NCBI RefSeq assembly: GCF_000336775.1
Contig: NZ_AOLJ01000014.1
Coordinates: 16,151-79,725, forward strand
DNA from: Haloferax gibbonsii ATCC 33959
GTDB taxonomy: Archaea > Halobacteriota > Halobacteria > Halobacteriales > Haloferacaceae
Length of the DNA: 63,575 bases
Reading direction: 5' to 3'
Part shown: positions 38,639 to 50,497 of the stretch, piece by piece
How the letters are laid out: each line of letters opens with the position of its first letter
How positions within the stretch are numbered: position 1 is the first letter of the stretch
Notes under the pieces: model-generated
What the model was told of the DNA's origin: nothing
The model's database searches: none
The model's input: only the letters and a program-made list of their open reading frames with translations
Position numbers and translations under genes: made by a program

Positions 38639-38723
38639 GCGTGGGTAGCCAAGCCAGGCCAACGGCGCAGCGTTGAGGGCGCTGTCCTGTAGAGGTCCGC
38701 CGGTTCAAATCCGGTCCCACGCA
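38639..38723 (+). tRNA. tRNA-Leu (GAG)
   Basis: The acceptor stem GCGTGGG (38639-38645) pairs with CCCACGC (38716-38722), with discriminator A at 38723. The D arm has GCC/GGC, the anticodon arm is CAGCG-TTGAGGG-CGCTG with anticodon GAG, there is a long class II variable arm (TCCTGTAGAGGT), and the T arm is GCCGG-TTCAAAT-CCGGT. No intron is present and CCA is not encoded. It reads CUC and CUU leucine codons. Its 3' half is repeated downstream. Confidence 0.95.
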
Positions 38724-38840
38724 TCGCAAGATGCAGGTGACGTCCCTACACGGACATCACCCACGCACAATCCTTCCACGAAACTACACCCCGGAGAGGT
38801 TCGCCTCTCTCGGGTTCTCCGAACTATTCTTCGACAGCAA

Positions 38841-38948
38841 GGGCGCTGTCCTGTAGAGGTCCGCCGGTGAGAATCCGGCTCGCCGGATTCGAACGTCGAG
38901 ACGAGCGGAGTGAGTCTCGGAAGTTCAAATCCGGTCCCACGCATCGCA
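38841..38948 (+). pseudogene. Broken copy of the tRNA-Leu 3' half
   Basis: The copy begins at the anticodon-loop bases GGG and reproduces the anticodon 3' strand, variable arm, T arm and acceptor 3' strand, but has no 5' half and carries a 54-bp insertion (38869-38922) within the T arm. The insertion consists of two adjacent hairpins, GAATCCGG/CCGGATTC and CGAGAC/GTCTCG. It cannot be a functional tRNA. Confidence 0.8.
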
Positions 38949-38992
38949 TGTGCGGACTCACAGTCCGCAATGAGGCGGCGTAGCCGCCGAAT
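38949..38992 (+). repeat. Double-hairpin insertion in the tRNA-Leu array
   Basis: This segment separates the copied tRNA end from the copied 63-nt flank, which are almost adjacent in unit 1. It holds two small perfect hairpins, GCGGACT-CAC-AGTCCGC (38952-38968) and GGCGGC-GTA-GCCGCC (38974-38988). It has the same two-hairpin design as the insertion at 38869-38922, though a different sequence. Confidence 0.7.
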
Positions 38993-39190
38993 GATGCAGG
39001 TGACGTCCCTACACGGACATCACCCACGCACAATCCTTCCACGAAACTACACCCCAGAGAGGTACTCCTCTCTGGGTTTCTCTGCACTGCTCCTCGTTGA
39101 GGGACACCTCTCCGAACGTCTCGTTATTCACCGGTCAGCGCCCGTGCCGCCCCCCGACTTCGACTACCGACCGCCGTCCCGTGCCGCGAG

Positions 39191-49205: not shown

Positions 49206-49251
49206 TCCATGTCTGAACCGCTCTCAGTCGGCGTCCTCGGCTACCGCTTCA

Positions 49252-49366
49252 GGCCCACCTTTTTGCGGTTCGGGGCCGCTTCGCGACCCGCTCTCCCCAA
49301 AAATCTGGACCAAAAAGTGCCGCGAGACTCGGCCTCCGGCCTCGCCCGCGGTACCGCATCGGGCAC
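49252..49366 (+). mobile_element. Putative small non-coding insertion (MITE-like) before the oxidoreductase gene
   Basis: The insert has no transposase. It contains CTTTTTGCGG near its left side and CCAAAAAGTGCCGCG in the middle, local palindromic GC modules such as CGGCCTCCGGCC, and ends near the Shine-Dalgarno GGAGGTG. The flanking 39-bp repeat is far longer than a normal target duplication, so replication slippage or recombination may have been involved. The identification as a mobile element is inference. Confidence 0.4.
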
Positions 49367-49373
49367 GGAGGTG
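49367..49373 (+). promoter_or_regulatory. Ribosome binding site of the oxidoreductase gene
   Basis: GGAGGTG lies 5 bases before the ATG at 49379 and is inside the inserted stretch, so the second copy of the start, not the first, has the proper ribosome binding site. Confidence 0.75.
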
Positions 49374-49378
49374 GCGCA

Positions 49379-50497
49379 ATGACTGAACCGCTCTCAGTCG
49401 GCGTCCTCGGCTACCGCTTCATGGGGAAGGCGCACTCCAACGCGCTCGCCCGCCTGCCGATGTTCTTCCCCGACGCGCCCGACGTGGAGCGCTCCGTCAT
49501 CGTCGGCCGCAACGAGGAGGCGCTCGCCGACGCCGCCGACCGGTTCGGCTTCGAATCGACTGCGACCGACTGGCGCGACGTGGTCGACGACGTGGACGTG
49601 TTCTACAACCTCGGCCCGAACCACCTCCACGCCGAACCCTCCGTCGCCGCGCTCGAAGCCGGTGCCAGCGTCTTCTGCGAGAAGCCGCTCGCGCCGACGC
49701 TCGACGAGGCCGAGGCGATGCGCGACGCCGCCCGCGCGGCCGACGGCGTCGCCGGCTGCGCGTTCAACTACCGCTTCGTCCCCGCCATCCAGTACGCGAA
49801 AGGACTCATCGAGAACGGCGAACTCGGCGAGATTCGGCACGTCCGCGGGCGCTATCTCCAGGACTGGCTCGTCGACCCCGAAGCGCCGTGGTCGTGGCGA
49901 AACGACGCGGAACTCGCCGGCTCCGGCGCGCTCGGCGACCTCGGCGCGCACACGGTCGACCTCGCGCGCTTCCTCGTCCGCGACGCCGCGGGCGACATCG
50001 AACGCATCTCCGGGCACCTCCAGACGTTCGTCGACGAGCGGCCCGTGCCCGGCGCGGACGAGTACAAGCCCGTGACCGTCGACGACGCCTACACCGCGCA
50101 GGCGGAGTTCGGAAACGGCGCGGTCGGGAACTTCGAGGCCTCGCGGTTCGCCGACGGGCACAAGAACGACCACACCATCGAGGTTCACGGCTCCGAGGGG
50201 AGCCTGCAGTTCTCGCTCGAACGCCTCAACGAACTGGAGGTGAAGACCGGCGACGCCCGCGGCTACGAGACGGTGCTCGTCACCGACGAGGACGACCCCT
50301 ACCTCGACCACTGGTGGCCCCCGGGCCACGTCCTCGGCTGGGAACACACCTTCGTCCACGAGAACTACGAGTTCCTGTCGGCGGTCGCCGAGGGCGGCGA
50401 GTTCTCCCCCTCGTTCGAGGACGCCTACGAGGTCCAGACAGTGCTCGACGCCATCGAGCGCTCCGACGAGACCGGCGAGTGGGTCAGCCTCGGCTGA
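49379..50497 (+). CDS. Gfo/Idh/MocA-family oxidoreductase
   Basis: The 372-residue protein has the NAD(P)-binding Rossmann start SVGVLGYRFMGKAHSNAL and the family motif CEKPLAPTLDEAEAM with the catalytic EKP lysine. GCAFNYRFVPAIQYAK and LGDLGAHTVDLARF are also conserved. Members oxidise or epimerise sugars and inositols. It follows the TIM-barrel isomerase on the same strand, which suggests a shared sugar pathway. The upstream region contains a duplicated copy of its start. Confidence 0.92.
   Translation: MTEPLSVGVLGYRFMGKAHSNALARLPMFFPDAPDVERSVIVGRNEEALADAADRFGFESTATDWRDVVDDVDVFYNLGPNHLHAEPSVAALEAGASVFCEKPLAPTLDEAEAMRDAARAADGVAGCAFNYRFVPAIQYAKGLIENGELGEIRHVRGRYLQDWLVDPEAPWSWRNDAELAGSGALGDLGAHTVDLARFLVRDAAGDIERISGHLQTFVDERPVPGADEYKPVTVDDAYTAQAEFGNGAVGNFEASRFADGHKNDHTIEVHGSEGSLQFSLERLNELEVKTGDARGYETVLVTDEDDPYLDHWWPPGHVLGWEHTFVHENYEFLSAVAEGGEFSPSFEDAYEVQTVLDAIERSDETGEWVSLG

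Follow-up and report, generated by a model that had tools for sequence, protein, structure and literature searches.

Small Hairpin Units with Proposed Target-derived Flanks behind the tRNA-Leu(GAG) Gene of Haloferax gibbonsii and behind Other Haloarchaeal tRNA Genes

The second unit found downstream of the tRNA-Leu(GAG) gene of Haloferax gibbonsii ATCC 33959 belongs to a class-wide family of hairpin units located directly behind haloarchaeal tRNA genes. These units come and go, and the tRNA gene is left intact. The explanation that we prefer, with middling confidence, is that small hairpin units are inserted or copied at gene ends, carry flanks derived from the target and are lost by recombination between those flanks; the insertion chemistry is a part that we infer. 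In the two Haloferax genomes that were scanned, roughly half of the tRNA genes have a structure of this type next to them, and a strict pattern for it is present in nearly all Halobacteria sampled; apparently, the structure has escaped annotation. It reflects either a new route by which small DNA multiplies with essential genes unharmed or a class-specific biology of the tRNA 3′ end. Given that no description of these units was found, among open-licence papers only, their novelty is provisional.

The locus was analyzed within a window of 63,575 nucleotides (63.6 kb), the term being used here for the whole stretch of DNA studied. Its layout is as follows.

38639-38723, + strand: intact tRNA-Leu(GAG) gene (ARAGORN; Rfam RF00005, 44 bits)
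38703-38728, + strand: first tail (A), T-loop through 3′ end with 5 nt of flank, an exact 26-nt repeat
38724-38814, + strand: first downstream flank, with a GCATC-GCAA-GATGC hairpin, a GGTGA..TCACC hairpin and an end hairpin (38790-38814)
38840-38868, + strand: start of the second unit, an exact 29-nt copy of the anticodon loop to the T-arm
38869-38922, + strand: insert 1 (54 nt), within the T-loop of the second unit
38871-38890: hairpin a of insert 1, with four two-sided compensatory changes across four species
38883-38894: inverted T-arm of insert 1
38897-38919: purine-ladder hairpin b of insert 1
38923-38948, + strand: second tail, an exact repeat of A
38949-38992, + strand: insert 2 (44 nt), comprising hairpins c (38951-38969) and d (38974-38988)
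38993-39076, + strand: second copy of the flank, exact over 63 nt, and its end hairpin (39053-39076)

Much of this arrangement had been recognized in a preliminary description of the DNA, which reported an intact tRNA gene whose 3′-half blocks and 63-nt flank recur identically in a second unit that is split at two sites by segments made of hairpin pairs. All of this was borne out. The exact direct repeats pair 38676-38704 with 38840-38868 (29 nt), 38703-38728 with 38923-38948 (26 nt) and 38730-38792 with 38993-39055 (63 nt). Given that the window has just five exact direct repeats of at least 18 nt lying no more than 400 nt apart, and that these are three of them, they are not attributable to chance. 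Inserts 1 and 2 each consist of two adjacent hairpins, and their insertion points correspond to hairpin loops of the first unit, namely the tRNA T-loop and the GCAA loop of GCATC-GCAA-GATGC, one base of which is replaced by insert 2. Insert 1 is an instance of the unit order described below, with CCGGATTCGAAC, hairpin b and GTTCAAATCCGG. The two end hairpins differ in sequence and retain their pairing, again as reported. A third, decayed unit suspected near 39096 was discarded, since the identity of 17/30 is reached by 20% of random 30-mers; an 18-mer selected post hoc matched at 14 of 18 positions.

All four occurrences of the acceptor end CCCACGCA in the window are at the tRNA-Leu(GAG) locus. 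The GGTGA..TCACC hairpin is followed by an 8-nt copy of this acceptor end (CCCACGCA, at 38760) in both units (38736-38768 and 38999-39031), and every one of the 15 Haloferax genomes read has the 8-nt copy after this hairpin, even where there is only one unit. In searches against Rfam, only the tRNA exceeded its gathering score; BcKCsr7 reached 24.5 bits against a cut-off of 59. The second unit is not an assembly artefact, because the locus contains no N and the unit is present in three relatives.

The preliminary description had also called for a comparison of related strains. Across 15 Haloferax genomes, the tRNA-Leu(GAG) gene and the first flank are present in every genus member, and the arrangement differs in the number of units. 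The second unit is common to genomes G000, G007, G012 and G004, in which seven two-sided pair changes were counted against one single change and 99.4% of cells are paired, these values being drawn from four species only. Genomes G009 and G013 possess one unit that carries insert 2, which is the expected outcome if the two 26-nt tails of the two-unit form recombine. In G003 the second unit is truncated, and the remaining members of the genus have one unit. This pattern suggests that the two-unit form is probably old in the genus and has been lost repeatedly.

In a wider survey, self-tail copies were counted as exact copies of at least 12 nt within 450 nt of the tRNA. In the source genome, about 31 of 53 tRNAs have an exact copy of their own 3′ end (12-29 nt, often 18-24 nt) no more than 450 nt downstream and none has one upstream, the counts being possibly inflated because single-N assembly joins interrupt the copies at tRNA-Arg(TCT), Thr(CGT), Thr(GGT) and Met. 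Inverted copies of the tRNA's own tail number 21 downstream and 0 upstream in the same genome. In H. marinum, 26 of 51 tRNAs have a downstream self-tail copy and none has one upstream. At four loci of the source genome (L039, L042, L045 and L067), the single-N joins in tRNA repeat arrays have duplicated sequence to either side, probably inflating the copy counts.

A copied tail usually extends from the T-loop through the last base of the tRNA, and the usual order of a unit is A (tail), h1 (trailer hairpin), A′ (inverted tail), h2 (purine-ladder core) and A. Many h2 hairpins form ladders, with two-base-pair steps, G-A/G-A mismatches and GNA triloop ends. Bases 5′ of A′ are enriched for the complement of the local acceptor-strand end; the effect is modest, and the observed mean was reached in 0 of 2000 permutations. 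Copies farther from the tRNA are more degenerate (mean identities of 18.8, 17.4 and 16.1 of 20), and divergence of the tail copy is close to that of the flank (0.065 versus 0.091), which together suggest that copies are generated and then decay and are not strictly conserved. Genome-wide, the ladder motif is not in excess (105 sites versus 99 for the reversed control), and the notion that it is a generic genome repeat was rejected on that ground. Among the ladder sites listed, 25 of 100 lie behind tRNAs on the same strand, where 0.33 would be expected.

The distribution of the units across the Halobacteriota was assessed with a strict pattern, GATTYGAA-N18..48-GTTCRAATC, with the reversed pattern as control. 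The strict pattern was detected in 283 of 292 Halobacteria genomes, covering 75 of 77 genera and 11 families, and the reversed control gave 0. About 13 of some 310 genomes of other Halobacteriota contained one or two matches each, which is near the control level. On named haloarchaeal contigs, 70 of 77 stricter palindromes have a same-strand tRNA no more than 400 nt away on their 5′ side, and an exact 21-nt copy of the adjoining tRNA's tail is carried by 39. These results establish the architecture, its association with tRNA 3′ ends and its near restriction to the Halobacteria.

A recurring match, GATTCGAAATCTGCTG, is the tRNA-Ser(CGA) gene itself and was set aside as a false positive of the strict pattern in some genomes. 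Outside the Halobacteria, a tail, inverted tail, hairpin and tail follow a tRNA on one Woesearchaeota contig (SURF_65; L289, 6210-6452), with no obvious recombinase among the listed nearby ORFs. In Bifidobacterium, hairpins formed of inverted and direct copies of a tRNA 3′ part, ending in CCA, occur at about 562-620 of L277 and about 1618-1676 of L278; a tRNA gene was not predicted on either contig piece.

Cores are shared between units behind different tRNAs. In all, 43 pairs of cores at least 85% identical were found behind different tRNAs. One 31-nt core is identical between tRNA-Ala(GGC) of the source genome and tRNA-Ser(TGA) of H. marinum, and another, at 94% identity, is shared by H. marinum, behind tRNA-Leu(TAG), and a member of another family, behind tRNA-Arg(CCT). 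The cores behind orthologous tRNAs of the source genome and H. marinum are mostly different. The arms of each unit match the local tRNA, even where the cores are near-identical. Comparison of the source genome with a close relative (G011) revealed that flanks free of units are mostly 95-100% identical and that many unit-bearing flanks differ by gaps that measure tens of bases and reach 269 nt. The entire unit is absent exactly between the two tails at tRNA-Lys, tRNA-Arg(GCG) and tRNA-Ala(GGC). The tRNA-Lys case is a loss, given that H. marinum has the orthologous unit with 93% core identity. Near-identical cores with local-tRNA arms, and the clean presence or absence of whole units between tails in close relatives, are also established. 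No fresh insertion was caught in these comparisons; the two polarized cases, tRNA-Lys and tRNA-Leu, are both losses.

Of the three readings offered in the preliminary description, repeated integration and loss comes nearest to these data, in that copy number varies among the 15 Haloferax genomes and the source genome and a close relative differ at several tRNAs by entire units, cleanly present or missing between tail copies. No integrase signature was found, there being no PF00589 gene on contig C14. Simple slippage fails to account for the inverted arm or the common cores. A small RNA family, the remaining reading, may apply, given the marked strand bias in folding.

The preferred explanation of target-flanked hairpin units can be formulated as a series of steps. 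A core would enter the T-arm region by moving or being copied; the same event would copy the direct and inverted tails on either side from the target, such that the tRNA gene stays intact; and the unit could later be deleted by homologous recombination between the direct tails. As a possible mechanism, a hairpin-capped break at the T-loop might be copied through to give A′-h2-A and then be joined to an intact sister chromosome. Haloarchaeal cells are polyploid. No enzyme for unit insertion was identified. A more specific proposal, which we put forward as tentative, is that the bare hairpin core is a new mobile unit, devoid of genes and terminal repeats of its own, that invades gene ends and above all tRNA T-arms, building direct and inverted flanks from the target each time by means of an enzyme, either the host's or unknown, whose substrate would be folded single-stranded DNA. 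To our knowledge, no known short transposable element rebuilds each arm from a new target, a step that the preferred explanation requires. The purine-ladder cores are short, and they could have arisen by convergence.

The main rival is a functional RNA trailer, co-transcribed with the tRNA, whose tRNA-like tail (T-arm and acceptor strand) would be recognized by tRNase Z or other enzymes; the inverted tail could pair with either tail, such that the precursor would switch between two 3′ ends and so tune maturation or stability. We regard this reading as unlikely, although a selected RNA would likewise be expected to show the near-universality, strand bias and compensatory changes of the units. 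In Haloferax, RNase P and tRNase Z process tRNA-like elements (PMC4946936); these elements resemble the units in being tail-plus-T-arm structures open to cleavage by tRNA-processing enzymes, the cleavage of the units themselves being a prediction. The sense strand is the more stable in 121 of 136 elements and the antisense strand in 15 (Wilcoxon, 1e-19), G-A mismatches making such a fold comparison strand-biased for DNA and RNA alike. This strand bias suggests a part in the process for the folded sense strand, either as RNA or as single-stranded DNA. Compensatory changes that conserve pairing, as expected of a structured RNA, were found at the tRNA-Leu second unit in four species only, and the enrichment of the own-acceptor complement before the inverted T-arm points the same way. 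In an energy-neutral fold, G·U pairs exceeded A·C pairs (110 versus 50), but the difference is not significant in the arms (39 versus 25), where it was rejected as proof of RNA, and it is absent from the ladder (13 versus 12). Similarly, the minimum free energy fold joins the 5′ acceptor strand to the distal tail in 90 of 105 predicted precursors, but shuffling of h1 hardly alters distal pairing (431 of 525), and a precursor switch encoded by h1 was rejected because the shuffle control was about equal. A trailer RNA is also difficult to reconcile with the flank-like divergence of the tail copies and with the many tRNAs and close relatives that have no unit. Together, these data show the unit to be a strand-specific folded element, which would work as RNA or as single-stranded DNA.

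Two further explanations account for parts of the data but not for the shared cores. Scars of integrase-borne elements, in which the tails would be attL and attR and the intervening elements largely lost, are considered improbable. Archaeal integrases favor tRNA 3′ ends, where they duplicate the tail (PMC8371274), deletions mediated by repeats have been documented in Haloquadratum (PMC3119063), and a direct repeat of the tRNA 3′ part beside an intact gene is what was found; yet no PF00589 integrase gene or remnant adjoins the site on contig C14, and the units are of one short size in hundreds of genomes, behind most isoacceptors. Since inverted tail copies and common hairpin cores are not products of such scars, plain integrase scars are an unlikely source. 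A neutral origin, by which hairpin-driven template switching and slippage at structured tRNA genes would yield the tail, inverted tail, tail order, is likewise doubtful in our estimation. The A, A′, A order is the outcome of two template switches, tandem arrays are in keeping with it, and the excess of double over single pair changes fits templated correction of hairpins, which would itself produce compensatory changes. By contrast, near-identical h2 cores behind different tRNAs in different families, and the near absence of the units from other Halobacteriota, are left unexplained.

Several known systems share features with the units. Archaeal tRNA-targeting integrative elements (PMC8371274) likewise use the tRNA 3′ end and keep the tRNA intact, whereas the hairpin units are about 60-150 nt, have neither integrase nor cargo, and contain an inverted tail and a hairpin core. 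The PATEs, MITEs and small mobile repeats of Haloquadratum walsbyi (PMC3119063) are also short non-coding palindromic haloarchaeal repeats that can be lost via recombination between short direct repeats; the PATEs possess subterminal IS605-type palindromes and make no target duplication (PMC3119063). Each insert at tRNA-Leu(GAG) is a hairpin pair, in line with two near-terminal palindromes, but the target tail is duplicated exactly, and unit flanks in general are direct and inverted copies of the target gene's end at tRNA 3′ ends. Integron attC sites have inverted core-site arms around a variable hairpin and a strand-specific fold, features shared by the units. The arms of the latter are tRNA T-arms, however, and the units are short and non-coding, with no cassette genes or cassette array, and no integron integrase was found on the contig.

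Related structures are present at protein genes. The source genome contains nine sites of a second hairpin family, TTTTTGGTCCAGATTTTT-hairpin-GAAAAAGGTGG, and at seven of them 15-63 nt of the neighboring gene end is duplicated around the hairpin. A gene in another Haloferax has its end likewise duplicated around TTTTTGGTCCAGATTTTT-hairpin-GAAAAAGGTGG. The arms of this protein-gene family are not target-derived. One of the nine sites lies in the window, as follows.

49213-49421: oxidoreductase-like ORF with CCCACCTTTTT-hairpin-AAAAATCTGGACCAAAAA, likely the second instance in the window, at a protein gene

Here, the 39-nt start of the ORF is duplicated (49213-49251 and 49383-49421), the two copies flanking CCCACCTTTTT-hairpin-AAAAATCTGGACCAAAAA. 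Duplication of gene ends around ladder-type hairpins at protein genes implies that the phenomenon is not confined to tRNAs. In another Haloferax genome (G001:C11; L036, 600-1000), the 3′ end of a GNAT-like gene occurs three times in tandem, with ladder hairpins between the copies.
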